A DNA stretch of 64,000 bases from Candidatus Nanohalarchaeota archaeon (GTDB lineage: Archaea; Nanohalarchaeota; Nanosalinia; Nanosalinales; JAFCCC01): positions 1 to 64,000 of the forward strand of contig JAFCCC010000004.1 of the NCBI GenBank assembly GCA_017610385.1, written 5' to 3'. The first letter of the stretch is position 1, and every line of letters starts with the position of its first letter. The notes below the pieces were generated by a model, which saw nothing but the letters and a program-made list of their open reading frames with translations, searched no databases and was not told where the DNA came from. The translations under genes were made by a program, and so were the position numbers. This document shows positions 4,447 through 51,105 of the stretch, in pieces.

Positions 4447-7400
4447 ATGACCACAACAAAACCAGATTCAAAATTTAAAGGTAATACGCCAAAAATAGAC
4501 TATTTTGAGCAATCAGAGTATTATTTTGATCGCAATGAAAAACGAATCCGTCTAAATCTTCAAGGAAGTAGTTATGCTGCTTCAATTGAGGATTTCGGCG
4601 AAGTTATGAGTAAAGTTATTACTTACCTTAGAAAAATAAGGGAAGCGCGATCATTTGTTCTTGCTAAGGATAGAGAATATGAATATACGGTTTACCAAAC
4701 ACATTTATTAAAGGAAATTGCAGAAGTTCTCGAATTTATCAAAAGAAAAAAATTAACAAATCCCTCTCAGTTAGAAATACCAAGTTGTGGAAAACATACT
4801 GCCGAAAGAGTTGCTTTTATGCAAGATTTTGTAATTAACAAATTGCAAACAGACCCTCTTGGTGCATATGTTCGACTAAAAAGATATATTGAAGAAATGA
4901 CTGTTATTGAAAACAAAGAGAGAGGGATATCTAATCGTTGTTATCAAAAATATATTTCAACAGTTTTAGAGCCTATCAGAATAGAATTAGAAAAAACAGA
5001 TTTAATTCAAAAAGTAAAAGATCAGCTTCCTGGACATCATATTGGAAATAGAGACATCTATAGACAGATTTTTCATCCAACAATTCGGCCAAATTTTATG
5101 TTGACTAGATATCAGGCATCGCTTCCTGAAAATGGAAATGAAATTGATCATTACATGATTCCTGTAGTAAATGCAGAAGTTCGGATTTTCAAAGTTTTAG
5201 GAGATATTAGACTACATTATCATATTACTCCGCCAGAATTTAATTTAAACGAAGAAGAATATGCTATTTTAGATACTGCCCGAAGATATATGTCTGAACA
5301 TGAACCAACAGAATCTGAGTTTGCAGATCCAGAAAGAACAAGGGAAGTTTTCTTTAATATTGGAAAAGACATGCTTTTGGATATTTTGGCTAGTATGGAA
5401 CTGGAGTTAAGTGAAGAAAAAGTTGAACAATTAGCCACTATTTTAACAAGATATACTGCTGGTTTAGGAATCTTAGAGGTTCTTTTAGCAGACCCAAACT
5501 TACAAGATATTTATGTTAATTCTCCTGTAGGGAACATTCCAATTTATACTATTCACGGGAAATATGGAGACTGCGTAACCAATCTTATTCCTACTTCCGA
5601 TGATGCTGAATCCTGGGCTACACGATTCAGAATGAGCTCTGGAAGGCCATTAGATGAGGCTAATCCTGTGTTAGATACAGAGACAGAAGTGCCAGGCGGG
5701 CGGGCCAGAGTAGCAATTATATCTAAAAATTTAAGTCCAGAAGGTCTAGCCTTCGCATTTCGACGTCATAGAGAAAAGCCATGGACCTTTCCGTTGTTTA
5801 TTGAACAAAATATGTTAACTCCATTGGCTTCTGGGTTACTAAGCTTCATAATCGACGGCGCAAGGACAATGCTCATTGCAGGAACTAGATCTGCTGGAAA
5901 ATGTGTTGAGGGTAACACCTTAATTCAACTTTCTGATGGCAACATCAAAAAAATTAAGGATTTGATTGGGGTAGAAAAACTCAAAATAGATGATGGAAAA
6001 TTATATGAGCCAAGAGACCCGTCTTACGTTCAAAGTTTAAGTGAAATGACCAATAGCTCACAAAAGATTCAACATGTATGGAAAAGAGAATCCCCTGAAA
6101 AAATGATTAAATTAAGGACAAAAACCGGTAAAGAGATAGTTACTACTCCAGAACACCCGTACTTTATCTATAATGGCGCGCTAAAGAATAAAAGAGCTGA
6201 TGAATTAAAGACTGGAGAGTTGATTGCAACACCAAGGAGAATTAAAACCAATGCAATAGATGTAAAAATCGAGTTAGACCACAATAATCATTTATTCACA
6301 GAAACAAAAAGTTACTATCTTGTAAAAGGTCGTACCAACGCCCATCAGGTTAAATTCCCCAAAAAAGTAACACCGGAACTTTCCGAATTTATTGGTCTCA
6401 TCTGTGGAGATGGACACTTAGATTTACACAAATTAGAATTCCATAATTGTTGCCCAGAATTAAGAAAAAGATATATTTCATTACTTGAGATGTTCGATCT
6501 TCCTTACAGAGTTTTCAAAAGTAAAACTACTTATGTAGTACAGGTCACATCTAGAGTATTAAATAGAATTTTAAATGATGTTTTCGAAATTCCATTTGGA
6601 AAAAAAGCAGATAAGATTATTATTCCACAAAAAATCTTACGATCTAATAACACTGTTTTGGCAGCATTTATTAGAGGATATTTTGACACAGATGGTTTTG
6701 TACATAAAAATAAGCGAGAAATTGAAATCACTAGTGCAAGTGAGGCCATAATTGAACAATTAAGGATGGCTCTTTTAAGATTCGGAATCATTTCTACAAC
6801 GAATAGAAAACGGGTTAGAGGATCAACTTATTTTAGATTACTAATATATGGAGCTTTTATTGAACCATTTGCAAAAGAAATTGGATTTTCTCAACCTGAC
6901 AAAGAAAAAAGATTAAGACGATTATTATCTGAAAAACACATGAATAATACCAATATTGATGTAATACCTCAGGGAAACGAAATCTTGCGGACTTTAAGAA
7001 AAGTTTTGAGAGTGAGTCCATTAGATTTGCGAGGGGCTGGAAAAGATTGTTGGGCATATGAAACTAATCAGTACAGAGTAACACGAAGATGGTTTAAAAA
7101 GATCATTGAATTTTATAGAAAAAGGTATGATTATTTAATTGAGAGTAAAGAACAGATTGAACTTCTTCGAAAATTTATTGAATTTGATTGTGATACATAT
7201 TTATCTAAAGTGGATTATTTAAGAAAACTTCTTGGAATATCCTATGTAACTCTTTCTGCCGATTTGAATATTTCTGATTCTGGACTTAAAAAAATACTTC
7301 AAAAGAACAAGGTAAGTGATATAGAAAAATTATGGGAAATCCATAAGTTAAAGCAAACTTTTAGCGTTCACCAAAAATCCTTATCCAATTTAAACGAGGT

Positions 7401-10400
7401 TGCACCAATCATTAAAAATACACCAATTTTTGTTGACGCCGGATTAATTTCTTACGCAAAACTTTCAAGAGATTTAAAAATACCAGAAACTACGTTGAAG
7501 TCCTATTGTTATGGAGGAATCACAGTTTCAGAAGAAAAAGCAAAACTTATTGAACATAAATTGACTTCAGTTAAAAATAAAGTAGTAGAACAAATAGAAA
7601 AATCAGAGAGTATCTTGCAAGAATTAAATTCATATGATTTTATTGCACACTGTGTTTCTTTTGGAACACTATTGCAAAAATTTAGAGAAGATCTTCACAT
7701 CACAAATCAGGAATTTGCTTCAGAAGACTTCTCGGTTTCTACAGTTTCTAATTTCTTTGCCGGTAGATATAAACCCTCCTACATGGTTTTAAAATCTCTT
7801 ATTGGGACAATATTAAAAATTTATGATGATTCTACCTCTTTAAAGGTACAAACTAGGTTAAGCGTATTTGAAAAATTAGCAAATTCAGATATTTTTTGGG
7901 ACGAAGTCTCTTCCGTGGAATTTATTAACAAGAGTGATGACTTTGTTTATGATTTGACAATTGAGAATACGCACAATTTTGTTGCAAATGGACTTTTTGC
8001 ACATAATACTTCTCTTCTAAGCGCCTGTTTAACCGAGCTGATGAAGAAATACCGGATCTGCACAGTAGAAGACTCAGTGACCGGAGATTCTAAATTGATG
8101 TATCGCATTAATAACCAATTTAAAAGAACGACTATAGGTGAACTCATTGACCCCCTCGTTGACCCAGAGAACAAAATAGCCACAGACAATTTAGAAATAC
8201 TAACAGACCTTCCTGAAAAAATAGAGGTTTATAGTATAGATGAATTCGGAAAACTTCACCTCTCACCAGTTTCTGCTGTTTCAAGGCACAAAGTTAAGAA
8301 AAAAATCTATGAAATTGAAACTAGAACTGGACGCAAAATTAAAGTAACAGAAGACCACTCATTATTCTCTTTGAATAATTCTGCGCAAATTTGCCCAATA
8401 CCCACCAAACAACTTAAAGCAGGGAATTACATTGCAACACCTCGTACCTTAAAATTATCTCAAAAAAATTTAGATTTTCTCAACTTGGCAGACTACACAG
8501 AGAAACTTAATGGATACTTTGTTTCTAAAAATATAAGCAAATATATACAGGAAAACAGAAAAAAAGTTTTAAAATTAGCTAAAAAATATAATTATTCAGA
8601 TTCAACTGTGGGAAGTTGGGTACGCAACGGAATTTTGCCTTCCCCAATCTTTAAAGAACTTGATTTAAAAGAGAACCTGCCTCTTACATCTTTAAAATAT
8701 AAAGAAGGCGGTCATTCCAGGGAAATAAACTGTAAAATAGGTCTTACTGAAGAACTACTTTCTTTTATGGGTATGTGGCTAGCAGATGGCTGTTATGATC
8801 AAAGAAGCATAATACTTTCTATTGCTGATAAAGAAGCAGTTGATATCATCACAAAAATTAGCAAATTATTTGGATGCGCTCTAAAAAAGCATTCGGATGG
8901 TTTTTCATACATGTTCAATAGCAAAACTGTAAAAGAAGTTATGATTTCTGTTCTGGGCCTAACTGGAAACTCTCATACTAAAAGAATTCCGAATCTAATA
9001 TATAATTTATCAGAAAAACAAATTGGCGCATTTTTAAAAGGTTTATTTAGTGGTGACGGATATACTGCAAAATATGAAGTAGGTATATCTCTTATTAATG
9101 CTAAATTAATCTCAGACGTTCAAACATTGCTTCTGGGGTTTGGAATTATTTCTCGCGTCAGGCTTGCGTCAGGTAAGGGCACATCTTCCTATAATACTTC
9201 ACACAATATGATTAGTCTGCGCATTAGCGGAATAAAATTCTTAGAGGAATTTAGAAAAAAAGTAAATTTTGTTCAGAACCACAGAAAAGAGTTCCTAGAA
9301 AAACTCTGTAATAAAAATATAACTCACGACAATACAGATATTATTCCTATTTCTTTAGATTTTAAAAAGAGGCTTTCAGTTATTTGCCCCTCATTTAGTA
9401 CCTACGATTACATCACAAGAGAAAATAATCTTGGCAGAGAAAAACTAGCTAGCTTAATAGAGGAAATCCCTGCCGGAGACACAGAACTGCTTTTGACTTC
9501 CAAGGATTTAGCAGAATCTGATGTATTTTGGGATCAAATAAAAAGCATCAAAGAAATCGAACACGATGGCAGTTACGTATACGATCTCTCTGTTCCTCAA
9601 AACGAATCTTTTGTATGTGAAAATATTTTAGCTCACAACACGCTAGAGATTCCAGTTTCTTCGTTGCGTGATTTGGGATATAATGTTGAACGAATGAAAT
9701 CTCGTTCTGTAATTACCCAAGTTGAAAGCGAACTTTCAGCAGATGATGCAATTAGAACTGCTTTAAGATTAGGTGATTCTGTTCTAATTATTGGAGAGGT
9801 AAGGAGTTTAGAAGCTAAGTCTCTTTATGAGGCAATGCGAATTGGTGCTCTAGCAAATTTTGTGGCAGGAACAATTCACGGAGACTCAGCGTATGGTGTT
9901 TTTGATCGTGTTGTAAATGATCTAGGTGTTCCCCCAACCTCTTTTAAAGCAACAGATATTGTTGTTGTAGCAAATACTCTTAGATCTCCGGATGGGCTAC
10001 ATACCTTTAGGAGAGTAACCAATATTGTTGAAGTAAGAAAAGAATGGACTGAAGACCCCTTAAAAGAACACGCTTTTGTTGATTTAATGATTTATGACTC
10101 TCAAAAAGATGAATTAGTTCCAACAGACACATTATTAAACGGTGAAAGTTTCGTTTTGAACAGTATTGCGAATAATATTAGAGAATGGAAAAATGATTGG
10201 ACGGCGATTTGGAATAACATATTACTAAGAGCCAAAATTAAAGAGACTCTTGTTAAATATTCTAGGGACTTTAAAAAACCAGAAATTTTAGAAGCAGAAT
10301 TTACAGTTAAATCAAATGAGAAATTCCATGAACTTAGTGAGTTTGTTAAGCAAGACCAAGGAATTATGAATTCTAAAAAAATATTTTCCTTATGGTTAAA

Positions 10401-10458
10401 CTGGGTAAAAAAAGAGCTTAAACTACAAAATATAAAGGCAAATGACTTCTTATTATAG
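4447..10458 (+). CDS. Type II/IV secretion (GspE/TadA/FlaI-like) ATPase interrupted by two inteins (system A)
   Basis: A 2003-residue precursor. Removing two inteins leaves a secretion ATPase of about 779 residues. The extein has an N-terminal domain (residues 1-about 320), a P-loop GTRSAGK ending at K485 and continuing after intein 1 as TSLL, and an Asp box TVED (1206-1209) continuing after intein 2 as TLEIP. These are followed by a Walker B-like LIIGEVR and a His box GTIHGDS, all typical of PilT/VirB11-type hexameric ATPases. It would power assembly of the type IV filament substrates encoded downstream. It is divergent from one platform gene and two bases from the next (10461). Both inteins must splice out to rebuild the P-loop and Asp box, so splicing could gate the activity of the machine. 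Confidence 0.92.
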   Translation: MTTTKPDSKFKGNTPKIDYFEQSEYYFDRNEKRIRLNLQGSSYAASIEDFGEVMSKVITYLRKIREARSFVLAKDREYEYTVYQTHLLKEIAEVLEFIKRKKLTNPSQLEIPSCGKHTAERVAFMQDFVINKLQTDPLGAYVRLKRYIEEMTVIENKERGISNRCYQKYISTVLEPIRIELEKTDLIQKVKDQLPGHHIGNRDIYRQIFHPTIRPNFMLTRYQASLPENGNEIDHYMIPVVNAEVRIFKVLGDIRLHYHITPPEFNLNEEEYAILDTARRYMSEHEPTESEFADPERTREVFFNIGKDMLLDILASMELELSEEKVEQLATILTRYTAGLGILEVLLADPNLQDIYVNSPVGNIPIYTIHGKYGDCVTNLIPTSDDAESWATRFRMSSGRPLDEANPVLDTETEVPGGRARVAIISKNLSPEGLAFAFRRHREKPWTFPLFIEQNMLTPLASGLLSFIIDGARTMLIAGTRSAGKCVEGNTLIQLSDGNIKKIKDLIGVEKLKIDDGKLYEPRDPSYVQSLSEMTNSSQKIQHVWKRESPEKMIKLRTKTGKEIVTTPEHPYFIYNGALKNKRADELKTGELIATPRRIKTNAIDVKIELDHNNHLFTETKSYYLVKGRTNAHQVKFPKKVTPELSEFIGLICGDGHLDLHKLEFHNCCPELRKRYISLLEMFDLPYRVFKSKTTYVVQVTSRVLNRILNDVFEIPFGKKADKIIIPQKILRSNNTVLAAFIRGYFDTDGFVHKNKREIEITSASEAIIEQLRMALLRFGIISTTNRKRVRGSTYFRLLIYGAFIEPFAKEIGFSQPDKEKRLRRLLSEKHMNNTNIDVIPQGNEILRTLRKVLRVSPLDLRGAGKDCWAYETNQYRVTRRWFKKIIEFYRKRYDYLIESKEQIELLRKFIEFDCDTYLSKVDYLRKLLGISYVTLSADLNISDSGLKKILQKNKVSDIEKLWEIHKLKQTFSVHQKSLSNLNEVAPIIKNTPIFVDAGLISYAKLSRDLKIPETTLKSYCYGGITVSEEKAKLIEHKLTSVKNKVVEQIEKSESILQELNSYDFIAHCVSFGTLLQKFREDLHITNQEFASEDFSVSTVSNFFAGRYKPSYMVLKSLIGTILKIYDDSTSLKVQTRLSVFEKLANSDIFWDEVSSVEFINKSDDFVYDLTIENTHNFVANGLFAHNTSLLSACLTELMKKYRICTVEDSVTGDSKLMYRINNQFKRTTIGELIDPLVDPENKIATDNLEILTDLPEKIEVYSIDEFGKLHLSPVSAVSRHKVKKKIYEIETRTGRKIKVTEDHSLFSLNNSAQICPIPTKQLKAGNYIATPRTLKLSQKNLDFLNLADYTEKLNGYFVSKNISKYIQENRKKVLKLAKKYNYSDSTVGSWVRNGILPSPIFKELDLKENLPLTSLKYKEGGHSREINCKIGLTEELLSFMGMWLADGCYDQRSIILSIADKEAVDIITKISKLFGCALKKHSDGFSYMFNSKTVKEVMISVLGLTGNSHTKRIPNLIYNLSEKQIGAFLKGLFSGDGYTAKYEVGISLINAKLISDVQTLLLGFGIISRVRLASGKGTSSYNTSHNMISLRISGIKFLEEFRKKVNFVQNHRKEFLEKLCNKNITHDNTDIIPISLDFKKRLSVICPSFSTYDYITRENNLGREKLASLIEEIPAGDTELLLTSKDLAESDVFWDQIKSIKEIEHDGSYVYDLSVPQNESFVCENILAHNTLEIPVSSLRDLGYNVERMKSRSVITQVESELSADDAIRTALRLGDSVLIIGEVRSLEAKSLYEAMRIGALANFVAGTIHGDSAYGVFDRVVNDLGVPPTSFKATDIVVVANTLRSPDGLHTFRRVTNIVEVRKEWTEDPLKEHAFVDLMIYDSQKDELVPTDTLLNGESFVLNSIANNIREWKNDWTAIWNNILLRAKIKETLVKYSRDFKKPEILEAEFTVKSNEKFHELSEFVKQDQGIMNSKKIFSLWLNWVKKELKLQNIKANDFLL
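5902..8007 (+). mobile_element. Intein 1 of system A ATPase (P-loop site), 702 aa, LAGLIDADG plus helix-turn-helix extension
   Basis: The insertion lies between Lys485 and the following Thr of the P-loop. It starts with Cys (CVEGNT) and ends VYDLTIENTHNFVANG...AHN before Thr, which are complete class 1 splicing motifs; TTPEHP supplies block B. Two LAGLIDADG-type motifs, FIGLICGDGHLD and FIRGYFDTDG, keep their acidic residues, so the homing endonuclease may be active. After a DVIP motif there are about 350 extra residues with several helix-turn-helix-like segments before the C-terminal splicing block. It is unusually long for an intein and resembles the 696-residue intein at the same site of the second ATPase (29897-31984). 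Confidence 0.93.
8074..9639 (+). mobile_element. Intein 2 of system A ATPase (Asp-box site), 522 aa, Ser-initiated, LAGLIDADG
   Basis: The insertion lies after TVED and before TLEIP in the Asp box. It begins with Ser (SVTGDSKLM) rather than Cys and ends VYDLSVPQNESFVCENILAHN (given here as two blocks: YVYDLSVPQ and LAHN), before Thr. Block B is VTEDHSLF. The LAGLIDADG pair is MGMWLADGCYD and LKGLFSGDGYTA, with both acids present. It follows the same plan as the P-loop inteins, including a DIIP motif and a short helical segment before block F, but lacks their long extension. Its N-terminal sequence is clearly different from intein 1, so it is a separate acquisition. The equivalent site in the second ATPase (29141) is uninterrupted. 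Confidence 0.92.
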
Positions 10459-10460
10459 GT

Positions 10461-12521
10461 ATGGATCATAAGCTTGATGAAGCATGGTGGGATAAAGAAC
10501 GAAAAAAGTTACAAAGACGCTTTAATGGATCTGAATTTTTACACGGAGAAGAAAGATTTCGCTCAAAAGACTATTTGAAATTTATAGAAAGCTCCAAACC
10601 AGAAAAAGAGAATCTTTATGTTAAATTATGTCATTCTTTTCAAAAATTTCAAATTAAGCCAGATAAAGCAACTAATGTTAAACTTACAAACGCGATTAAC
10701 TTGCTGGAATGGGACATTACTCCAGGTCAGTGTATGACAACTGGAATATTTCTTGCTATTGTTTTAGCAATTCCTAGTTTTTTAGTATTCTTATTTAAAA
10801 TTTCACTTATTCTTAAATTGGCAGCATTTTCAATTCCGCTTATTGCATTGTATGTTGGAATGACTTATCCTCATATAAAAGCATTAGAAAAAATTGTAAA
10901 AGGTTCTGAAGATCTAATTTTTTGCATACTATATATGATAATATACACGTATTCTTCTCCAAATCTAGAAGGTGCTGTTATCTTTGCAGCCACAAATTTA
11001 GAAGGTCCGATTTCAAAGGATTTAAAAAAAGTTTTGTGGAATGTTGAAGTTGGAAATCAAATAAATGTTGATCGCTCTCTTTCAGATTATATTGCTCGCT
11101 GGGAGCCATATAATCGGGATTTTCTTGAATCAGTCCAATTAATCAAAGGTGCGATGAGAGAGCCTTCAGATCAAAAAAGAAATGAAATGTTGCATGCTTC
11201 ATCTGAAACGATTTTACAAGGCACCAAAGAAAAAATGAAACATTATTCTCAAGACTTAAAAATGCCTGTTACAATTTTAAATGGTTTCGGTATATTACTT
11301 CCTGTTTTAGGTATGATTGCTTTACCCTTGGCATCTATTTTTTTAGAATCAACGATTAAACTTTCGCATCTAATTTTATTTTATGATATAGTTTTACCTT
11401 TGATTCTTTATACTGTAATGATCCGTGTTTTAATTAAAAGACCACCAACAACCAGCGTTCAACCCCTAAATCAACGAGCTCTCCCACCAAAAGGCAAATT
11501 TACTATTAAACTCGGTAAAAAACACATAAAAATTCCCGCATTAGTTCCTGCAATTTTAATTTTTGTCGCACTTGCCACCCCCGGATTAATTAGTTTAATA
11601 CAAAATCCCATGCTTCAAGAACCATCTATTGCAAATATGAGCAGAAGTCTATTCATTGTGTTGGGTTTGGGTTTGGGCATTGGTACCTACTTTTTTATAG
11701 GCTATAAACAGAGATATGAAAAACAAAAACAGCTTGAAATCATAGAAGCTCAATTTCCAGTTGCGTTATTTGAACTTGGACACAGGTTAGCTGATGGAAA
11801 ACCAATTGAAGCTGCTCTGGATTCTGCAGCATATGCCATGAAAAATCTATCTATTTCTGGATTTTTCAGAATAATCTCAAATAATATTAAAAGAGTTAAC
11901 ATGGTTTTTAGAGATTCTATATTTGACAAAGAACTTGGCGCCATTAGAAAATATCCTTCAAAGTTAATAGAAACTGTTATGAAGGCAATTGTAGATGCTG
12001 CCCGGAGAGGTACCAAGGTTGTAAGTGGCACAATGCTTACTATTGCCTCATATCTTCAAAATTTACATAACACTCAAGAAGAGATTTCTGATTTAATGGA
12101 AGAAAGTACAACCACTATGAAATTCGTTGGTTTTATGCTTGCACCAGTAATTGCAGGAGTTGCAGTCTCCATGACTCAAATTATGATCAATGCACTAACG
12201 ATTTTAAAAGAGAAGTTTGCAGATGTCGGAGAAATTGGAGCAGGTGGCGCAGATACGGGCATGGGTACAAATTTATTATCTGGATTTATAAAATTAGAAT
12301 CAATGATTCCCCCACACATATTGCAATTAGTTATTGGAATTTACATAATTGAGATTTTACTGATTATTGGTTTATTTTATACTAGAGTAAAACAAGGAGA
12401 AAATAAAACCGTAGAAAGAATGAACATGGGCAAATTATTATTAATTGGATCAATAGTTTATGTAATTACCACGTTACTAATTTCTGCAATCTTTGGGGGA
12501 ATATTAAAAACAATTATTTAA
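10461..12521 (+). CDS. FlaJ/PilC/TadC-like membrane platform protein, second of system A
   Basis: A 686-residue polytopic protein whose ATG lies two bases after the ATPase stop, so the two are translationally linked. Hydrophobic helices occur at about residues 95-140, 265-325, 360-420, 555-580 and 620-686. Two T2SSF-type helical domains lie between them. The order of helices and the motif PxTILNGFGILLPVLGMIAL correspond to the minus-strand platform protein at 2275 (PVTLIHMMGIVLPIMGLIMF), so the two are paralogues. Two long platform proteins for one ATPase suggest a heterodimeric base, much as TadB and TadC pair in Tad systems. Confidence 0.85.
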   Translation: MDHKLDEAWWDKERKKLQRRFNGSEFLHGEERFRSKDYLKFIESSKPEKENLYVKLCHSFQKFQIKPDKATNVKLTNAINLLEWDITPGQCMTTGIFLAIVLAIPSFLVFLFKISLILKLAAFSIPLIALYVGMTYPHIKALEKIVKGSEDLIFCILYMIIYTYSSPNLEGAVIFAATNLEGPISKDLKKVLWNVEVGNQINVDRSLSDYIARWEPYNRDFLESVQLIKGAMREPSDQKRNEMLHASSETILQGTKEKMKHYSQDLKMPVTILNGFGILLPVLGMIALPLASIFLESTIKLSHLILFYDIVLPLILYTVMIRVLIKRPPTTSVQPLNQRALPPKGKFTIKLGKKHIKIPALVPAILIFVALATPGLISLIQNPMLQEPSIANMSRSLFIVLGLGLGIGTYFFIGYKQRYEKQKQLEIIEAQFPVALFELGHRLADGKPIEAALDSAAYAMKNLSISGFFRIISNNIKRVNMVFRDSIFDKELGAIRKYPSKLIETVMKAIVDAARRGTKVVSGTMLTIASYLQNLHNTQEEISDLMEESTTTMKFVGFMLAPVIAGVAVSMTQIMINALTILKEKFADVGEIGAGGADTGMGTNLLSGFIKLESMIPPHILQLVIGIYIIEILLIIGLFYTRVKQGENKTVERMNMGKLLLIGSIVYVITTLLISAIFGGILKTII

Positions 12522-16285: not shown

Positions 16286-16615
16286 ATGAAAGGAGAAATA
16301 AGTAGCTTAATAAAAGCATTAGTTGTTCTTGCTTTAGTGATAGGGATAGTTTCTTTGATAGCCTTCGGTTCCAAAGCCATAATTGCTGCAATTAAGGGGA
16401 ACTCTGCGGAGCTTATTAGTACAGTAAATGACACATTTGTAGATGAAAATATGGCAAAGCAGTGCAAATTAGCGTTTCAACAGTGTTGTGCACTTGCAGA
16501 AGGAGATCGTGCTACAAGAACAGATCTTTGTATGAGTGTTTTAGGAAATACTTTATATGATATGGGAGATGGAGATCCAGTGGCCTGTATAAAATATTTT
16601 GAGGGAATATGTTAA
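16286..16615 (+). CDS. Small pilin-like protein with cysteine pairs
   Basis: A 109-residue protein with an AAGGAGAAG ribosome-binding site before the ATG. The N-terminus MKGEISSLIKALVV places KG before an acidic residue and a hydrophobic helix, a minimal class III signal. The exposed 60 residues hold six cysteines (QCCALAEG, DLCMS, ACIKYFEGIC) and are probably disulfide-locked. The next gene starts inside its last codons (ATG overlapping the stop), so the two are translationally coupled. Confidence 0.72.
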   Translation: MKGEISSLIKALVVLALVIGIVSLIAFGSKAIIAAIKGNSAELISTVNDTFVDENMAKQCKLAFQQCCALAEGDRATRTDLCMSVLGNTLYDMGDGDPVACIKYFEGIC

Positions 16616-17127
16616 TTCACAAAACGATAATTCATAGAAAAGGCAATTCTGTGGAGAAATTAATTTTATATGCTATTAGCGGAATCTTGTCTGGTTTGTT
16701 GATACTTGTACTTTATAATTTAACAATCAATGGAATTACCACATCTCAAATCAATTCAGATTTAGGTATAGCCAAAATAATTCAAAAGGATTTAAGAGAT
16801 CTTTGCGCCCCCATTTCTTCTAATTTGAAATTTAATCCCGAAGAAGGATTAGCTCCGTTAGTTACTGAAAAAGTTAGATTTTCGAATAGCTTAACTGAAT
16901 TAAAACTTCTAAATGATCCAGAAGGTCCTCATTTTAATCTTACTTGGAAGAATCAGCAGGCAAGACTTAGTTTAGAGGGTTGTGATTTCTTTGATGGTAT
17001 TATCCTTATTTCGCCAACGCACAGAGAAAAAATTATTGGCGGCGTAAAATATGCTATATACAGAAATGCGTATTATAATGAAACTGACCAAAAAGCATAT
17101 GTAACTGTAACTTTTGAGGAGGTATAG
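16609..17127 (+). CDS. Pilin-like protein
   Basis: A 172-residue protein whose ATG overlaps the preceding stop. HRKG then NSVEKLILYAISGIL gives an RKG processing site with Glu at about +4 and a hydrophobic helix. The exposed domain is beta-rich, with a few cysteines (LRDLCAP, LEGCDF). It is one of five consecutive genes with overlapping ends (16286-19291), which indicates a single operon with fixed stoichiometry. It is probably a minor pilin or pseudopilin. Confidence 0.75.
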   Translation: MLIHKTIIHRKGNSVEKLILYAISGILSGLLILVLYNLTINGITTSQINSDLGIAKIIQKDLRDLCAPISSNLKFNPEEGLAPLVTEKVRFSNSLTELKLLNDPEGPHFNLTWKNQQARLSLEGCDFFDGIILISPTHREKIIGGVKYAIYRNAYYNETDQKAYVTVTFEEV

Positions 17128-17131
17128 AATA

Positions 17132-17677
17132 ATGAAAAGGAAAGGGGTAGAAACATTTAATGCGGTTCTATACACCACTTTTTTTATTACGTTTGCATTA
17201 TTTCTTTTATTTATTTTTCTTCAGGTTGGTGTAAAAGAAAAAGGCGTTGTTTTGGGTTCTTTAAATTCTGAACACGCCAATCGAATTTCTAATGCCATTA
17301 ATTTAATTCAAACCTATGAACAAGGAACAGTTCATATAGAACTGCCTGGAAAATACATTGTAAAACTTAGTTCTAAACGTACTACGCTGGGGCGCCTATA
17401 TTACGTAGAAGTAGCTTATAAAAGTGAAAATAATATCGCAAATAGTAAAGGGTTTAAAATAAAAAAAGATACAAAGGTGTTTCCCATAATGAGTCAAGGT
17501 AACTTAGTAAGTTCAACTCATATTGACGTTTTTGGTGTCGTTTCTACTAAAAAAAACCCCACGAATAAAATTTGTATAGTTAAAATCAATGATAAATTAT
17601 ACATTTTTGATGAGGAAAACCCAACATATACTTTACCTAACGAGGTGAATCAAGTAGAATGCGCTCTAAATTACTAA
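17132..17677 (+). CDS. Pilin-like protein
   Basis: A 181-residue protein from the ATG at 17132, with a strong GAGGAGGT ribosome-binding site (17115-17122). This is preferred to a TTG at 17114 because it places MKRKG directly before VETFNAVLYTTFF. KRKG with Glu at +2 is a class III signal. The exposed part is beta-rich and carries one cysteine near its middle and one at the C-terminus. It overlaps the next gene by 19 bases. It is probably a minor pilin of system A. Confidence 0.76.
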   Translation: MKRKGVETFNAVLYTTFFITFALFLLFIFLQVGVKEKGVVLGSLNSEHANRISNAINLIQTYEQGTVHIELPGKYIVKLSSKRTTLGRLYYVEVAYKSENNIANSKGFKIKKDTKVFPIMSQGNLVSSTHIDVFGVVSTKKNPTNKICIVKINDKLYIFDEENPTYTLPNEVNQVECALNY

Positions 17678-18705
17678 TCACACATACAAACACACATAGA
17701 AAAGGAGATTTTGAAAAGATTATCGTTTTTATTTTTCTAATTGTTGTAGGAGTGACCATTATGGGCTTTGCAGCACTAGACTTTATTCATTTCAAAGTAG
17801 ACGTTCAAACTTCTGGTCAAGAAGAATACAATCGATTTGCTTTAACTGAAAAAATACTAAATGCACCGGGTTGTACTATTTCAAGAGGAACTTTCTTAAA
17901 AAGTAAATTATTATCTCAGGACCCAGAAACCTGTCAATTTATTGATTGCCCTATAGATACTACAATTGACTGGGCGTATTCTGCACTGTCCAACGACTTT
18001 GAACTCCCAATTTGTGAAGTAACAACTAGCAGCGACCAAACTGTAAAATATAAATTTAAAATTTCAGAAGCGATTCCTATTTTAGTTTATGATAAAGCCT
18101 CTGGCGTATATTCTAGTGCGTATTTGCTTATTTATGGACCAGAAGGAATTTATTCTTCATCATATTCGTCTGGTAGATCTGCACCAGGAACTTTAGAGGT
18201 TTCAGAAAAAGAAAAGTATAAATCAAAAATAAATGTAGATTATATGTATGATTTTGATTGTGACGCTCCGCAGGGATTAGAACCACGAGCAAAATGCGTC
18301 ATTGATCAGGTTATTGGGAGTATAGAAGCTAATACGGGTGGTAGATGCAATCCTTGCGAATTAAAATCTGAAGTTTATGCAGGTACAGATAAAAAAGAAA
18401 CAGAAACGGTTAAAGAAGATGTAGGTGGTATTTGGAGTACCTGGGAAAAATGGACTGCAGATAATTTTGTTTCAACCGTTGTTTGGGCAGGAGAAGATAC
18501 AAACATTGGAATAAAATGGAATTATGTGACTGGAAAAACAGGGTCCGGGTATTTTACGAGAAATTTCAGAAAACCTTATTTAAAAATAATTTATCGAGTT
18601 ATTTGCCCACCCGGCATGGTTGCAGAGCAAATTGATGATAAGTATCAATGTAAGGGATTAGAACCCGCAGAAGAAGAAAAATCAGAGGTACCAGAAGATG
18701 CATAA
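17659..18705 (+). CDS. Larger pilin-like protein
   Basis: A 348-residue protein whose ATG lies inside the end of the previous gene. HRKG then DFEKIIVFIFL is a class III signal with Glu at +3. The exposed domain carries about ten cysteines, including CNPCELK near residue 230 and CPPGMVAEQ near the C-terminus; a similar CPPGYSYDR stretch ends the pilin-like protein at 25055. The C-terminal tail is rich in Glu (EPAEEEKSEVPED). It overlaps the next gene by eight bases. It is probably a tip or minor subunit. Confidence 0.75.
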   Translation: MRSKLLITHTNTHRKGDFEKIIVFIFLIVVGVTIMGFAALDFIHFKVDVQTSGQEEYNRFALTEKILNAPGCTISRGTFLKSKLLSQDPETCQFIDCPIDTTIDWAYSALSNDFELPICEVTTSSDQTVKYKFKISEAIPILVYDKASGVYSSAYLLIYGPEGIYSSSYSSGRSAPGTLEVSEKEKYKSKINVDYMYDFDCDAPQGLEPRAKCVIDQVIGSIEANTGGRCNPCELKSEVYAGTDKKETETVKEDVGGIWSTWEKWTADNFVSTVVWAGEDTNIGIKWNYVTGKTGSGYFTRNFRKPYLKIIYRVICPPGMVAEQIDDKYQCKGLEPAEEEKSEVPEDA

Positions 18706-19291
18706 TCACAAAGGAATGGAAGCATTTTTAGCAGTTCCTATTGGACTAGCCTTTATTATTATTATCGCTTTTGGGCTAAAAGCAGTTGGTAATGTAACCC
18801 TAATTCAATCTCACATTCTAGTTGAACAGACCTTTGCATTTGAAAGTTCATTTGGAACATTGGTTAATCAGGTGAATCAATTATTGAGTATTAAGAATCC
18901 TGATAATTTTCCTGGAGAATTACGTCTACCAAATAAAAAAATTGACAAGCTTTCTTATTGGCTTGCATTTTATGCTCATGCAAATAAAACCAATTCAAAT
19001 ATTAAATATAATGTTACAGATCCAAATTCAGCTGAAATTTCTTTGGAAGACGCAAATGTCTCAATTACTGCACAACTAAACGAAACTGCCCATGCAATTC
19101 TATCAACCGATATATTTTATTCCTTACTATTCGCAGATATTGTTGTTAATCAGATTCCAGACAGAAAAATACAGACGTTTGGTAGAGCAATACTTCCAAT
19201 ACCAATTCCTGGTGATGAAATAAAATATTTCAAATTTGGAAGAGAAGAAACAAATTATAATTTAGTGTTATCTCAAAAGGAGCGTGATTAA
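18698..19291 (+). CDS. Pilin-like protein
   Basis: A 197-residue protein beginning MHNHKGMEAFLAVPIG. HKG before MEAF gives Glu at +2 ahead of a hydrophobic helix, fitting a class III signal with His in place of the first basic residue. The exposed part has several N-x-S/T sequons and no obvious domain. It overlaps the previous gene by eight bases and touches the next (stop at 19291, GTG at 19292). It is probably a minor pilin that works with the giant subunit downstream. Confidence 0.74.
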   Translation: MHNHKGMEAFLAVPIGLAFIIIIAFGLKAVGNVTLIQSHILVEQTFAFESSFGTLVNQVNQLLSIKNPDNFPGELRLPNKKIDKLSYWLAFYAHANKTNSNIKYNVTDPNSAEISLEDANVSITAQLNETAHAILSTDIFYSLLFADIVVNQIPDRKIQTFGRAILPIPIPGDEIKYFKFGREETNYNLVLSQKERD

Positions 19292-22200
19292 GTGAATTAT
19301 AAACTTTCGAAAGGTATGGGTGAAGGAGTTATTATTGTTATTATTCTTTTGGGAAGTTTAATCAGTCTAGTTTTAGGAATTAGCGCTCAAATGTGGACGG
19401 TCCACAACAAGGTCGCAAGAATAGAAGATTTTTCTGCAATGGTCCAAACGCATGCAATAGCAAATCATTTAGAAGAACATTATATTAATCAAAGTCTAGT
19501 TTACGCTAGCTGGGAGTCTTCTTATCAGCTAGGGAAGATTGGAGGAACTTCAGCAGAATGGAAAGAAGGAAAGCTTCCTAAAATTGATGAAATTTCTTGG
19601 AATTTGGCTCAGAATATTACACATTCAAAATATTTTAGCAGTTTTGAAAGCAAAGAATGTATTGTAAATTTTAAAGATGAGTATCAATTTGAAGATATTA
19701 ATTTCAGCAAGGAAAATTCTTTTGAATTCTTCGCAAATAAGACTCCAATTGAGGTTAGTTGCTCTAAAAATAGTGCCACCGCAAAGTATTATTTAAATGC
19801 CTCTCGTTTGATAACAAGCAGTGGAAACAGATATTTTCATTTATATGATTTATGTTATAATTTATCTAATTGGACAGATTTCTTCGCAGATCAAATCGAA
19901 GATCCAAGTGGCAATTATTATGGCATATTCGCGCTTCCAGTGGAGGGCATGTCAGATAGTTTAAAAAATACATTTACTCCCGAATGTTCCCATGAAATAA
20001 CTGATTCTCCAGGATCAGTCATTGAAGCGGCTTCTTTCTTGGTTGCTCAGTTGATTGCTGAAATCGGATATCGAGGCGAAGTTTACGATGCCTATAAAAA
20101 AAGTAAAGACCTCGCAACCCTTCCAGATGGTGTAGAAATAGATTTAGAAAATGAAGCAAAATTAAGATGGCCAAGTTTAAGTCATGAAATTCTAAGTTTA
20201 TTATTTCCACAGTTGATGGGAAAATTAGGTGATTTACGAGCTAATATTCAAACATTAATAGATGGTATAGAAACTCAAATTGACGCTACTTTAGCTGACT
20301 TTCAAAATTCTGGAATTATAGATATTGCTCATGATTTATCTACTTATTTGAAAGATTCATTAACGACTGTAGAAAATATTCAAAAAATGGTCGATGACGC
20401 AAAAACAACTGCAGACAATATTCTTAATTCATTTGATTTTGTAGATTCAGCAGCAAAAACTGTTACGGATGTTGGTAACGATGTTGTTGATACAGTAGGT
20501 TCTATTACCTATAGTGATTTCATGGACGGTTTAAAGATGGATATATCTACAAAAATAACTGATTTTGAACAACAAACTGTAAATAAAATTACGAATCCAA
20601 TTGAGGACCTACTAGATAAAGCGAATATTGATTACGGAAGAAGAGCTTCTGCGTCTAGTCTTAGTGATTTTGCAGATGATACAGTCTCGCCTGTTTCCGA
20701 AGAATCACTAACTAAAGATGAATTAAAAAAACAAATTAATGATATAATTGATTCAACGGATTTAACTGATCTTACAGTGGATTTTACAGACTCTATTAAA
20801 GATGAAGCTCATAAAAAAGTAACTGCTTTTGTTGATGAAAATATTAAAGAAAAAATTAACGACGCAATTGAAAAAACTATTTCTGACTTAAATGAAACAT
20901 TAAGAAAGGAGATTAAAGAACAGTTCAAAGAACAATTTACAACAATAATAAGAGATAATTTAGAAGAACCAATTAAAGAACAAGTACGAAGTGTTATTCA
21001 AGATTCTATTCGAGGTTCAATAGACAGTTTATTAAATGATATTTCTGAGCAAATTGACCAGCAAATTGACCAGTATCTTGATGATATGTTAGGAATAAAT
21101 TCCGAGTCTGGAGAAATTGATTATACTAGTTTAGTAGGTACAATTAGTGAAAATTGTGCTTTGCCCGACGATTTCTCTTTATTAGATAGCCTAAAAGACG
21201 AAGTTGAAAAGGTTATTAAAGAACAACTTCAAGAAAGCTTGTCTGGTGTCGTTGACCAATTAAAATCAGAAATAAAAGACGCAACTGAAAATACAATATT
21301 AACTGCTTTGGATGACACAATTGATTCTATTACAAGCGAATTAGAAACTGAAATTTTGTCTATTTTAAATGAACAAACAGATGCGATAGTAGATTATTTT
21401 GTAAATGCGTTAGACGGACCAATATCTGATTCTATAAATCAACTTTTAGATAATTTAGAAGAGCAAATTAGTCTTAAAACAGATAATTTCATTAATTCCG
21501 CCGTAGATCAAGTAAATCCAATCGCAGAAGAATTTGATAGCAAAGTCAGCAACATCAAAAATATTGTGAAAAACGCTGCAGATTTGGCTATTGATTTAAC
21601 TTATGAAAATGCAGCAGCAACTGAAACAGGATATTTTAAAATTAAAAATGCCGCTAGTTTTGGCGCAAGATTAAAAGAGGTAACTCCCATTAATAGACGG
21701 ATTAAGACCAATATCATTACCTCTATTGAGACTTCAATTCACACAGAGATATTTGAACCAGTTTTAGTTGTTGTAAATGCCTTTGAACCAATTGATGAAG
21801 AAAAAGTTAATAATTTACAACAAAATCTTCTTGACGTAGCAGATACTGTGATGGAAGCTTCTGAAATTTTAAATGATGCTTCTGAAATAAAAGCTAAAAT
21901 TGATTTGCAATTGGATCAAGTTCATTCTAATATTCAAACCACCCTAAATAATTTAGATAGTCAAATAGAAAGTACAATAAGTACACTTGATTTAATTGAA
22001 CCATTCATAAATCAATTAAAATACATTAAAACAATTGTTGTAGCAAATATTGATAAGCTTAGCAATGTTCTAAGTGGAAACACTCCTTTTGTTTTTCATT
22101 TTCCACCAGAATCCAAAAAAATGATTTTAGACGTAACTGTTCCAATTCCGACACCGGCTGGCATGGTTTACATACGAGCAGTTATTACAAGGGTTAAAAT

Positions 22201-22348
22201 AGATCCCGAATCCGCTAAATACGACATACGCGCCACAGACAACAAATTTGTTCTTCCAGTAAGCGACGGATACAAAAATTTAGAGTTCGTTTGTCCTTAT
22301 AAACAAGTATTTGAAGGAACCTTAGAGCAACCTCTGCCAGAATCTTGA
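19292..22348 (+). CDS. Giant prepilin-like protein with about 500 residues of helical/coiled-coil repeats
   Basis: A 1018-residue protein starting with GTG one base after the previous stop, with an AGGAG ribosome-binding site. LSKG then MGEGVIIVIILL is a class III signal. Residues 30-260 form a mixed domain with N-glycosylation sequons. Residues about 310-900 are almost entirely amphipathic helix, very acidic, with repeating I/L-D/E-x-x-I/L patterns such as EQIDQQIDQYLDDML and EEPIKEQVRSVIQDSI. The C-terminal 100 residues form a beta-rich domain with a PIPTPAG turn. It could form a long rod or filament-length ruler held by a pilin-type anchor. I know no described family with this layout. Confidence 0.82.
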   Translation: MNYKLSKGMGEGVIIVIILLGSLISLVLGISAQMWTVHNKVARIEDFSAMVQTHAIANHLEEHYINQSLVYASWESSYQLGKIGGTSAEWKEGKLPKIDEISWNLAQNITHSKYFSSFESKECIVNFKDEYQFEDINFSKENSFEFFANKTPIEVSCSKNSATAKYYLNASRLITSSGNRYFHLYDLCYNLSNWTDFFADQIEDPSGNYYGIFALPVEGMSDSLKNTFTPECSHEITDSPGSVIEAASFLVAQLIAEIGYRGEVYDAYKKSKDLATLPDGVEIDLENEAKLRWPSLSHEILSLLFPQLMGKLGDLRANIQTLIDGIETQIDATLADFQNSGIIDIAHDLSTYLKDSLTTVENIQKMVDDAKTTADNILNSFDFVDSAAKTVTDVGNDVVDTVGSITYSDFMDGLKMDISTKITDFEQQTVNKITNPIEDLLDKANIDYGRRASASSLSDFADDTVSPVSEESLTKDELKKQINDIIDSTDLTDLTVDFTDSIKDEAHKKVTAFVDENIKEKINDAIEKTISDLNETLRKEIKEQFKEQFTTIIRDNLEEPIKEQVRSVIQDSIRGSIDSLLNDISEQIDQQIDQYLDDMLGINSESGEIDYTSLVGTISENCALPDDFSLLDSLKDEVEKVIKEQLQESLSGVVDQLKSEIKDATENTILTALDDTIDSITSELETEILSILNEQTDAIVDYFVNALDGPISDSINQLLDNLEEQISLKTDNFINSAVDQVNPIAEEFDSKVSNIKNIVKNAADLAIDLTYENAAATETGYFKIKNAASFGARLKEVTPINRRIKTNIITSIETSIHTEIFEPVLVVVNAFEPIDEEKVNNLQQNLLDVADTVMEASEILNDASEIKAKIDLQLDQVHSNIQTTLNNLDSQIESTISTLDLIEPFINQLKYIKTIVVANIDKLSNVLSGNTPFVFHFPPESKKMILDVTVPIPTPAGMVYIRAVITRVKIDPESAKYDIRATDNKFVLPVSDGYKNLEFVCPYKQVFEGTLEQPLPES

Positions 22349-22463: not shown

Positions 22464-22522
22464 TTTAAAGTAAGATTTACTATAAGATTATCTTTATAAT
22501 CTAAGATACGCAATTGTATATT

Positions 22523-24046
22523 ATGTACTCTAAGAAGGGAATGAGCACCATGGCTTTTTTAATTGTGGGTATTGTTCTAGCGGTAATTGTTGCATTATTA
22601 ATTACTCTGCAAGTAAGAGCAAGTAACTCTAGTGTTGATGGACTATATTCAAAAGCAAAGCAACAGTGGATTAATTTTTTTGGAGATAGTACACAGAACT
22701 CACATGATTCAAATGGAGATAACGGCGCTTCAACACATTTAGAATGTATAAATGAAATTTGTGTTGAAAAAGAAGGTAAAGGAACTGATAGCTCATCCTG
22801 TTCAACCGTTGGGGAAAGTTGCACTTTGGGTGCGTTGACTGCAGCATTTACTGTCAGTCCAAATAATCCGACAACTCAGGATACTCCCCAGTTCAATGCT
22901 GAAAACTCACAAGGAGATATAACTCTTTATGAATGGGATTTTGGAGACGGATCTGACAAAAAGGCAGTTACCAACAAAAAAATAAATCATGCGTATAATG
23001 TTCCCGGGATATTTACAGTTAAACTAGTAGTCCATGACGATGTAGGGAATTTAGATGAGATTGCACTTAAAGTAACTATTATTGCGGTTAGCAATAACGA
23101 AGTACCTCCTTTAGCCGCATTCACTGTTTCTGCAGAATATCCAGGACCAGGGCAACCAGTTCAATTTACAGATGGCAGTAGCGATTCTAATGGCGTGATT
23201 GATATTGAAACACGAACTTGGGATTTCGGAGATGGACAAACTTCTTTACTTACAGATCCAGAACATACATATTATGAATTAGGAGAGAAGGAAGTATCAT
23301 TAACGGTTGTTGATAGGGCAGGAGAACAGAATGTAGCTCAAAAAATCCTCATGGTAAAAGAATATCCTATTGCTGATTTTAGGATTATACCAAATCCCGA
23401 TACAAATGAACTCAGAGTTGGAGATAGTATTACTTTTAATGGAGAAAATAGCCAAGACCCAACAGAGCCCACCAAGGCAATTTCTAAATGGGAATGGAAT
23501 ATTAGTGCTCGTAGCAGTTACTCAGGTTCCATAGACGATGTTATTCTTCAGGGCAGCTATGTTTCACACGTGTTTACAGAAGAAGGAACCTATTCAATTG
23601 CTCTGACTGTTACATCAGCCGATGGAAACAGAACAAATACGCTTATAAAAGAAATTGAAATATTACCAAAATTAATAATAGAACCAAGTGTAACTCACAT
23701 TTATCGATACGTTGAAGGTACAATAGACAAATCAACTAAAATAAGAATAAAAATTAAAAATGAAGATGAAACTGCACTTAATATTTACGCTTCTATTAAA
23801 ATTATGGATGATACAGAATGTGATAGTGATAGCCCCTCCATCATCATGCCTTCTTCACTACTAATTCAACCAGGAGATACAACTGACTTTTTAGACTTCA
23901 AAAACCTGTGTTATTGGCCACTCAATAAAGAAACTCACATACAAATTACAACTGGTCAAGAAGGTAGTTCAACTATGTGGTACACTTGTGTGACCTGCAA
24001 GGCAAATACTGCGCAATGTGGTCCTATAATTCCCGGACGGTGTTAA
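22523..24046 (+). CDS. Prepilin-anchored protein with three PKD domains
   Basis: A 507-residue protein from the ATG at 22523; a TTG nine bases earlier was rejected. SKKG before MSTMAFLIVG is a class III signal. After a Ser/Asn-rich linker come three PKD domains (about residues 107-190, 195-280 and 283-380), two with the hallmark WDFGDG turn and the third with a degenerate WEWNIS. A final beta domain with cysteines (CVTCKANTAQCGP) closes the protein. PKD domains are beta-sandwich modules of surface proteins that mediate adhesion or spacing. It is probably a surface-exposed adhesive subunit of system A. Confidence 0.84.
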   Translation: MYSKKGMSTMAFLIVGIVLAVIVALLITLQVRASNSSVDGLYSKAKQQWINFFGDSTQNSHDSNGDNGASTHLECINEICVEKEGKGTDSSSCSTVGESCTLGALTAAFTVSPNNPTTQDTPQFNAENSQGDITLYEWDFGDGSDKKAVTNKKINHAYNVPGIFTVKLVVHDDVGNLDEIALKVTIIAVSNNEVPPLAAFTVSAEYPGPGQPVQFTDGSSDSNGVIDIETRTWDFGDGQTSLLTDPEHTYYELGEKEVSLTVVDRAGEQNVAQKILMVKEYPIADFRIIPNPDTNELRVGDSITFNGENSQDPTEPTKAISKWEWNISARSSYSGSIDDVILQGSYVSHVFTEEGTYSIALTVTSADGNRTNTLIKEIEILPKLIIEPSVTHIYRYVEGTIDKSTKIRIKIKNEDETALNIYASIKIMDDTECDSDSPSIIMPSSLLIQPGDTTDFLDFKNLCYWPLNKETHIQITTGQEGSSTMWYTCVTCKANTAQCGPIIPGRC

Positions 24047-28329: not shown

Positions 28330-29088
28330 ATGGTTAAAGAGATTCTGACGAAAGGAAAGCCCGAGTGGAAAGAAACAATTATCAGTACAGATGTTGACCG
28401 CCTTTTAAAATATTTGACAGAAAAGGGTTCTGCTAATACTAAAAGAATATCCAAGGATCTTGGAATTCCAGAACAAACAATTTTAGGCTGGGCAAAGGCA
28501 CTTACTTCTAGTAAGCTAATTGAAAAGGAATATTCTACAAAAGGAGTAATCTTAAAAGTAGGAAGTAAAAACCAAAAGATTACTCAAAAGAAAATTGCTG
28601 AAGTGCACAAGGAGATTGGAAGAAAAATTAAAAGAGTAAGAAGCAACGTACAAGGAGAGTCTCAGACAATAACCGAAGTAAAAAAAGAACTTGAAAAATT
28701 AGGGATTCTTTTAGAAAAAGATCGAAAAGAAAGTTACTATTTAGAAAAAAGAATTTTTTCTTTAAAGGACACTCAGATTAAATTAAAAAAAGAATTACTA
28801 AAAGATATTCTTTCTGAACGAGAAATTGAGACTGAAATTTCTTCTGTCTTAAATAATGTTCATAAAACCCTTTCTAATTTGAAAGAAGCCGAAGGAGCTT
28901 TTAAAAAATTTGTAGGCGCCAAAAAAGAATTAGATGAAGATATTAATACACTAAAACAGCTTAGACAGTATGATACGAATATAGACTTGATGCTTAAAAC
29001 AAGCAAAAAAGTAAGCGTTAAAGAACAAAGAACCAATTTAATTTTTAGAAAAGCTATGAGTTCTTTAAAGAAACTATTAAGAAAGTAA
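28330..29088 (+). CDS. Winged-helix plus coiled-coil protein upstream of TadA-like ATPase
   Basis: A 252-residue protein. Residues 20-80 form a winged helix (DVDRLLKYLTEKG, then TKRISKDLGIPEQTILGW as the recognition segment). Residues 85-250 are charged coiled coil. There are no membrane segments. It lies 52 bases upstream of the ATPase of system B and in the same direction. It may be a transcriptional regulator of the locus, or a cytoplasmic factor binding the ATPase through its coil. A TATA-like TTATATTATA lies directly before the ATG. Confidence 0.72.
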   Translation: MVKEILTKGKPEWKETIISTDVDRLLKYLTEKGSANTKRISKDLGIPEQTILGWAKALTSSKLIEKEYSTKGVILKVGSKNQKITQKKIAEVHKEIGRKIKRVRSNVQGESQTITEVKKELEKLGILLEKDRKESYYLEKRIFSLKDTQIKLKKELLKDILSEREIETEISSVLNNVHKTLSNLKEAEGAFKKFVGAKKELDEDINTLKQLRQYDTNIDLMLKTSKKVSVKEQRTNLIFRKAMSSLKKLLRK

Positions 29089-45976: not shown

Positions 45977-46603
45977 ATGAATATTAAAGAACAAATCAAA
46001 GTTCTAAAAGAAAAAGATCCAATTTTAGGAGAAGTAATAGATCAAATTGGCATAATTACCATACCTCACAAAGAGGAAAATACGTTTATTGCGCTGTCAA
46101 ACACAATAATTTATCAACAATTAGCAGGAAATGCCGCCAAATCCATTTATGGACGATTTAAAGCACTTTGTAATAATGAAATAGCCCCAAAAAAAGTGCA
46201 GAGTTTATCTCTCGAAGAATTAAGAACTGCGGGTCTCTCTGAGCGAAAAGCTTTATATCTGAAGGACCTCGCAAGGAACTTTATTAAAGGTATGATTCTT
46301 CCTGAAAACTTTAGTAAATTAAGTAATGAAAAAATTATGGAAAAACTAATGGCTGTAAAAGGAATTGGTCCATGGACTGTAGAAATGTTTTTAATATTTA
46401 ACCTAAATCGGCCAGATGTTTTTTCAGCCAAAGATTTGGGATTGCATAAGGGAATTTGTAAATTATACAATAAAAAGTATCCTTTAACAGAAAAAGAATT
46501 AAATGAAATCGCAGAAAAATGGAGTCCGCATAGAACTCTAGCTTCTTTATATTTATGGAAAATTAAAGACCGCGTGAATTTTGAGCCAATGTTTATTGAT
46601 TAA
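45977..46603 (+). CDS. DNA-3-methyladenine glycosylase II (AlkA-like, HhH-GPD)
   Basis: A 208-residue protein of the HhH-GPD superfamily, which removes alkylated bases. The helix-hairpin-helix LMAVKGIGPWTVEMFL is followed by the catalytic aspartate region NRPDVFSAKDLGL. The N-terminal TIIYQQLAGNAAKSI is the base-flipping region seen in AlkA-type enzymes. The length matches short AlkA homologues without the N-terminal domain. Its stop overlaps the end of the convergent HerA gene by four bases. Confidence 0.93.
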   Translation: MNIKEQIKVLKEKDPILGEVIDQIGIITIPHKEENTFIALSNTIIYQQLAGNAAKSIYGRFKALCNNEIAPKKVQSLSLEELRTAGLSERKALYLKDLARNFIKGMILPENFSKLSNEKIMEKLMAVKGIGPWTVEMFLIFNLNRPDVFSAKDLGLHKGICKLYNKKYPLTEKELNEIAEKWSPHRTLASLYLWKIKDRVNFEPMFID

Positions 46604-50079: not shown

Positions 50080-50086
50080 ATGCATA

Positions 50087-50190: not shown

Positions 50191-51105
50191 ATGTTCAGTT
50201 ACATTTCATTTGGTTTCTTTTCAATTGTGATCGCTTTATTTGGATCTTCTATAGCCGCTTATTTTGACGTTAAAACTACAGATGTTCCAGATTTTATTGC
50301 TATTTATATGGCAATTGCCGGAGTTACAATAAATGCAATTCAAAGTTATTTAACAGGAAATAACACGTACATTATTGGTTCATTGATTGTGGGTGGCATT
50401 TTTACTGCGATAGGTGCTTTGAAATATTATACCCGGTTGTGGGGTGGTGCTGATTTTCTTTTGTTTGGTGCTATAGGGTTTTTAATTCCACGTATGCCAA
50501 GCACATTCGTCACTGTTTCTGCACCTTGGCCATATCCTGTCACACTGGTATTCAATATCATGATTATTGGTGCAATATATTCTATAATTTATTCAGTATT
50601 GTTAGCAATTAGAACAAAGGGATATTGGAAATTATTTTTGAATAATTTTAGAAAATCCAGAAAAACACTAATTCTCGGTTTAATATTGTATTTTGGTTTG
50701 GTTTTCATTTTATCTGGAGCAACGTCTATTATTACTTCAATTCCTTTTACATTTATTTTTATAGGTTTTTTGCAAAAATTTATTTTATATTTTATTGCTT
50801 TAATTTTCTTGACTGTTTTTTTGCAAACAATTCAATTTGATATTTTAAATAAAAAGATTAGAACTACCCATTTAAAAGAAGGTGATGTTCTATCTGAAAA
50901 AGTAATATTAAGAAAAAAAATAATTCCCGCAAATAAAATTATTGGACTTACCAAAGAGCAAGTTAAACAAATTAAACAAGAGAAGCGATTTATTAAAATC
51001 ACTCAAGGCGTACCATATATTCCGATATTTCCAATAGCCATTATAGTCACTTTCTTTTTCGGAGATATAATTTATATATTACTTCCAATTGCTGGAGTTT
51101 ATTAG
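50191..51105 (+). CDS. Archaeal prepilin/preflagellin peptidase (A24 aspartic protease)
   Basis: A 304-residue polytopic membrane protein. The catalytic aspartates of the A24 family are D26 in AYFDVKTTDVPD and D88 in WGGADFLL (the GxGD-type motif, here GGAD). About eight membrane helices follow, with a basic loop in the second half. It would cut class III signals after Gly, upstream of the hydrophobic helix, and is the only such protease visible here. Its substrates would be the roughly twenty prepilin-like proteins in this window. The C-terminal half is longer than minimal FlaK/PibD enzymes. Confidence 0.9.
   Translation: MFSYISFGFFSIVIALFGSSIAAYFDVKTTDVPDFIAIYMAIAGVTINAIQSYLTGNNTYIIGSLIVGGIFTAIGALKYYTRLWGGADFLLFGAIGFLIPRMPSTFVTVSAPWPYPVTLVFNIMIIGAIYSIIYSVLLAIRTKGYWKLFLNNFRKSRKTLILGLILYFGLVFILSGATSIITSIPFTFIFIGFLQKFILYFIALIFLTVFLQTIQFDILNKKIRTTHLKEGDVLSEKVILRKKIIPANKIIGLTKEQVKQIKQEKRFIKITQGVPYIPIFPIAIIVTFFFGDIIYILLPIAGVY

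Follow-up and report, generated by a model that had tools for sequence, protein, structure and literature searches.

What does a prepilin-like protein of 1018 residues do among the genes of a pilus locus, where its neighbours encode small prepilins? The gene lies in a contig of a Candidatus Nanohalarchaeota archaeon, and by the window we mean the whole stretch of this DNA that was analysed, 64,000 nucleotides in length. Its open reading frame (19292-22348, + strand) starts with a GTG codon, carries a Shine-Dalgarno sequence (GGAG) just 5' of the start and follows an open reading frame whose stop is at 19291; tandem DNA repeats within it are trivial only. The N-terminus of the encoded protein is MNYKLSKG|MGEGVIIVIILLGSLISLVLGISAQ, in which a K/R-G motif is followed by a hydrophobic stretch, consistent with the archaeal class III (prepilin) signal that the first-pass annotation had proposed. 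That annotation had also placed the gene within a pilin-like array, and this holds: nine + strand open reading frames between 16286 and 27164, the present gene included, have the K/R-G motif with a hydrophobic stretch, and ORF 16286 has KG at its extreme start. The run lies 3' of a pilus ATPase and a fused double TadC, and a prepilin peptidase is present in the genome, inside the same window. The principal features are:

4447..10458, + strand: ATPase for pilus assembly, same locus, interrupted by two inteins
10461..12521, + strand: TadC-like membrane protein (fused double), same locus
16286..19291, + strand: five small prepilin-like genes (16286, 16609, 17114, 17659, 18698), directly 5' of the 1018-aa gene
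17114..17677, + strand: small prepilin at position -3, matching the -3 gene of Nanohaloarchaeota clusters (hhalign E 4e-6)
19292..22348, + strand: 1018-aa prepilin-like protein, GTG start
19292..19315, + strand: leader MNYKLSKG (residues 1-8) with the K-G cleavage motif; sequence motif, cleavage predicted
50191..51105, + strand: prepilin peptidase (Peptidase_A24; domain 50239-50586, E 6.9e-10)

Several other genes deserve mention in their own right. Immediately 3' of the 1018-aa gene, 22514-24046 encodes a prepilin-like protein of 510 aa with three PKD domains. Four LAGLIDADG inteins are spread across three ATPase genes (4447-10458, 29141-32788 and 46600-50085): the first pilus ATPase has two, and a FlaI-like ATPase and a HerA-type protein have one each. 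A 923-aa vWA-domain protein with an N-terminal anchor (36623-39394) adjoins the small prepilin-like ORFs 39863 and 40254 and is a second modular-pilin candidate. On the - strand, L096:5225-19705 (in G000:C8, overlapping the end of the window and extending beyond it) is open over 4826 residues and may encode a giant surface protein. Further very long N-anchored proteins adjoin pilus genes at L068:1518-5984 (1488 aa), L153:14603-18064 (1153 aa) and L144:12238-22236 (>3300 aa); these differ in type from the 1018-aa protein.

Whole-protein searches with the 1018-aa sequence found no homologue. Comparing profiles of its parts, we conclude that the 1018-aa protein belongs to a family of prepilin-like proteins, mostly of ~330-390 aa, in which it is a member carrying an insert of ~700 residues ahead of the C-terminal module. 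Common to the protein and the family are residues 1 to ~205 and, less strongly, the final ~40 residues: the first 180 columns of the family (12 members) align with residues 1-184 (hhalign E 2.7e-10) and the last 41 columns with residues 967-1007 (E 1.9e-5), while the two ends joined, for comparison only, match the family with E 8.5e-12. A family profile with the window left out of its seeds found the protein at E 1.4e-8 among 2488 ORFs; when Aenigmatarchaeota seeds without payload were added, the window still being left out, the value was 1.5e-11 among 2072 unique ORFs. In a whole-set profile search with the C-terminal module alone, the protein was the best non-seed match outside the full-scoring members, though a weak one (protein E 0.013, domain E 0.043). 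The parts held in common are:

19316..19540, + strand: long N-terminal helix alpha-1, residues 9-83, the first ~25 hydrophobic (AlphaFold2, 30-row alignment, pLDDT mostly 87-96)
19541..19906, + strand: remainder of the conserved N-domain, with helix 98-110, six strands in 123-177 and helix 181-201; GG...W, C123, C157 and NRY motif
22127..22306, + strand: C-terminal beta module, residues 946-1005, with the D..F.LPV.DG..NLEF motif common to the family

Modelled alone (AlphaFold2, 30-row alignment), the N-domain forms a long helix and an antiparallel sheet with a pLDDT of 84, and on this model a pilin fold is likely. Foldseek and VIA-align gave no significant match between the model and any solved structure, pilins included; the matches listed were at chance level and no pilin was among them.

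The family takes its place at the end of the minor-pilin cluster behind the fused TadC gene, in both Nanohaloarchaeota and Aenigmatarchaeota. In Nanohaloarchaeota the order runs from the fused TadC through an array of small prepilins to a closing family protein of ~330-390 aa, and the 1018-aa gene likewise comes after the small-pilin set; the third gene 5' of it (17114) matches the third gene 5' in the relatives at the E of 4e-6 given above, the other pairings not being comparable. Family matches were found in 20 of the 28 genomes of the phylum, which are those of the window's order (class, phylum and order contain the same set, so that a wider search added nothing), and in 28 of the 50 genomes reached through loci with related ATPases, mostly Aenigmatarchaeota. 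Members range from 243 to 1203 aa, most of them 330-390; the earlier remark that 1018 residues is an unusual length holds. We found no Pfam or NCBIfam model naming the family and, in the open papers, no description of it. Its N-domain (GG...W, cysteine pair, NRY), its C-terminal D...PV..G..NLEF module and its place in the cluster are common to the 1018-aa protein, whereas the ~700-residue helical insert is that protein's own feature. Long beta-rich prepilins directly 3' of TadC in Nanohaloarchaeota, taken as counterparts by size, were dropped because they occupy a different cluster position and are unmatched by the profile that finds the 1018-aa protein. The first-pass annotation had overlooked both the membership of a conserved minor-pilin-like family and the position of the helices as an insert. 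We also considered whether the N-terminus could be an ordinary anchor on a protein of a conserved non-pilus family; the family is indeed conserved, but it resides in type IV pilus loci with an ATPase, a fused TadC and small prepilins, which argues against this.

Some relatives carry payloads of a different kind. Among the Aenigmatarchaeota members, L228:11891-15502 (1203 aa) contains Amidase_3, YkuD and PKD domains, L179:18319-20598 (759 aa) Amidase_2 and SLT, L155:12811-15597 (928 aa) SLT and Peptidase_C39, and L229:3669-5981 (770 aa) a C-type lectin, while L238:5775-6941 has PG_binding_1 inserted within the N-domain. The payload types are thus amidases, a lytic transglycosylase, an L,D-transpeptidase, a C39 peptidase, a C-type lectin and a peptidoglycan-binding domain, a hint that the cells contacted have walls and may be bacteria. 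A profile built from payload-free members recovers L228 at E 8.8e-52, L238 at E 6.9e-26 and both L179 and L155 at about 1e-14, the lectin protein L229 being recovered more weakly (E 0.001). In the 1018-aa protein the N-domain comes first, then the payload, then the C-terminal module. Loci of this type also encode further prepilin-like or N-anchored proteins (L150:20563-21678, L150:17923-18576 and L172:19909-22071), with Peptidase_M23, glucosaminidase-like and GH5 cellulase domains.

The insert of the 1018-aa protein is strongly acidic and contains little Pro and Gly, residues 301-930 having 123 D/E, 51 K/R, 11 P and 17 G, with a net charge of -72. No homologue of it was found, and its fold therefore rests on a whole-protein AlphaFold2 model of low confidence (mean pLDDT 51), though a consistent one. 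In this model helices span 293-379, 496-599, 629-777, 788-828 and 836-927, interrupted by small breaks, and strands occupy 946-1005 toward the C-terminus. The first-pass annotation was right about a terminal beta domain; of its amphipathic helix of about 600 residues, the number of helix-forming residues stands but the single helix does not, as the region consists of several helices with breaks near 395-475 and 600-628. The main helical segments, assigned from the model and from hydrophobic period, are:

20168..20428, + strand: helical segment 293-379, hydrophobic period 3.70
20777..21088, + strand: long helix 496-599, hydrophobic period 3.91, ~15.6 nm
21176..21622, + strand: long helix 629-777, hydrophobic period 3.81, ~22 nm
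21797..22072, + strand: helical segment 836-927, hydrophobic period 3.51 (an ordinary heptad), with a weak match to an apolipoprotein-like Pfam model

Over residues 496-777 (282 residues) the hydrophobic period is 3.86 (half-power 3.84-3.89), with a power of 27.8 at this period against a maximum of 10.6 over 300 shuffles. In a comparison of 104 proteins from the loci retrieved, each with a strong periodic window of 100 residues and with the 1018-aa protein entered twice (a full copy and a cut copy), its periodic power of 26.4 was the highest; ranked by period, one weak case (power 11.6) stood above it and another (11.8) alongside, so that its pattern was also nearly the most right-handed of the set. 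Matches to coiled-coil-like Pfam and NCBIfam models (apolipoprotein, DUF445, katanin) were all under the models' own cut-offs and were set aside.

These properties bear on whether the insert is a membrane-active or effector-like payload, whose amphipathic helices would, once contact is made, enter a host membrane or cover it in the manner of apolipoprotein-like proteins. Lipid-binding helices have a period of 3.6-3.67, and that of the insert is far from it; the net charge of -72 over residues 301-930 speaks against such a role too, and the apolipoprotein-type Pfam match that suggests it (residues 838-896) is weak, falling far under the curated cut-off. Although the enzymes of the relatives look host-directed, and Nanohaloarchaeum antarcticus, which depends on a haloarchaeal host, invades that host (PMC11291902), we regard this explanation as quite improbable.

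The period is also informative about coiled coils, for which an upper limit of about 3.9 is expected, the most extreme known example being YadA at 3.8 (PMC4786415). The period of the insert fits right-handedness, and a coiled coil, if it forms one, would be right-handed to an extreme degree; since 3.86-3.91 is at or over the limit suggested for alpha-helical coiled coils, its core may depart from that of a classical coiled coil. YadA-type right-handed stalks resemble the insert in having a hydrophobic period well over 3.63, but theirs is 3.75-3.8 as opposed to 3.86-3.91, and the 1018-aa protein has no autotransporter anchor.

Right-handed coiled-coil stalks typically belong to surface anchors, the YadA stalk being one (PMC4786415), and large inserts hinder filament packing. 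Both points lend some appeal to the idea that the protein never enters a filament and that its pilin-type segment anchors it in the membrane as a surface stalk, comparable to that of an S-layer or an adhesin. The gene, however, lies within a minor-pilin cluster, at a position conserved across the phylum, and the window encodes a prepilin peptidase; we therefore think a purely membrane-anchored stalk unlikely. A molecular ruler or tape measure fixing the length of the filament or its base, as the first-pass annotation suggested, is another way to read a long helical protein, and in length and helical repeat the insert does broadly look like tape-measure proteins. The helical region is, however, absent from every other family member found (243-1203 aa), the core being conserved and the insert not, whereas a ruler of a conserved filament should retain its length. 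To our knowledge, length-ruling is not known in type IV filaments, and this reading strikes us as very improbable. We found no evidence for a contractile element, also suggested earlier, and reject it; the stalk, which the same annotation had also named, stays plausible.

The explanation that we favour, and consider probable if well short of secure, takes the 1018-aa protein to be a minor pilin of modular build that presents a right-handed helical stalk or hairpin with which to contact a host. Its pilin-like base, established by profile comparison and gene order, consists of the conserved N-domain, with the hydrophobic alpha-1 and a small beta-sheet head, together with the C-terminal beta module. 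To judge from the genes around it, prepilin peptidase would cut at K-G to release the leader, and the mature subunit would be built into a type IV pilus-like filament by the ATPase and the fused TadC. The two halves of the base flank the ~700-residue acidic insert and would force it along an out-and-back path, so a helical hairpin or an oligomeric right-handed coiled-coil stalk of 15-40 nm is to be expected, leaving the base and returning to it. Displayed at the filament tip or on the cell surface, the insert would act as a host- or surface-contact element, replacing the enzymatic and lectin payloads of the relatives. What the analysis establishes is the family membership, the place in the locus, the signal, the presence of the peptidase and the period; where the protein sits on a pilus, its oligomer state and its contact with a host are inferred.

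Such an architecture has precedents. The minor pilins GspK and ComZ, which have a large inserted domain, are placed at the tip because addition above them is blocked, and CofB forms trimeric tips (PMC7248040). Like the 1018-aa protein, GspK and ComZ are the largest minor pilins and their pilin head accommodates a large extra domain, but one far smaller than here; the T2SSK (GspK) profile gave no match to the 1018-aa protein at E <= 1, and by profile the protein is not GspK. Its architecture fits a modular minor pilin, and it would work like one. Modular pilins bear adhesive modules (PMC10191384), and PilB and PilC of Streptococcus sanguinis likewise carry a foreign functional module on a pilin base; theirs is adhesive and grafted via a linker, whereas the helical insert lies inside the domain, and the parallel is one of architecture. 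Host contact has already been proposed for DPANN pilus loci with coiled-coil proteins (Hamm 2024, PMC11291902). The CCPs beside the pilus genes of cluster 2 DPANN in that work, NAR1_03220 and NAR1_01690 among them, compared here by description, are also long coiled-coil proteins in a DPANN pilus locus. The window contains an HTH and coiled-coil protein (28330-29088) that adjoins the second pilus ATPase and TadC pair and lacks a prepilin signal; it is likely to be a closer counterpart of those CCPs than the 1018-aa protein is.

The source archaeon is tiny and probably host-dependent, and the means by which DPANN archaea make contact with their hosts, keep hold of them and open them are a main open question. 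As a wider proposal, possible but on the doubtful side, DPANN pilus machines would have an exchangeable payload minor pilin, probably located at the tip, whose head can be a wall hydrolase, a lectin or, in the present protein, a right-handed helical stalk (3.86-3.91, beyond the 3.8 cited in 2016 for YadA, then the most extreme coiled coil), in order to reach and engage a host cell. The insert itself, if it is a coiled coil, would be a natural case on which to test how high helical periodicity can go. The payload family as a whole may be more notable than the 1018-aa protein alone. A conserved minor-pilin family with swapped heads (enzymes, lectins, a helical stalk) provides testable candidates for the host-contact element.
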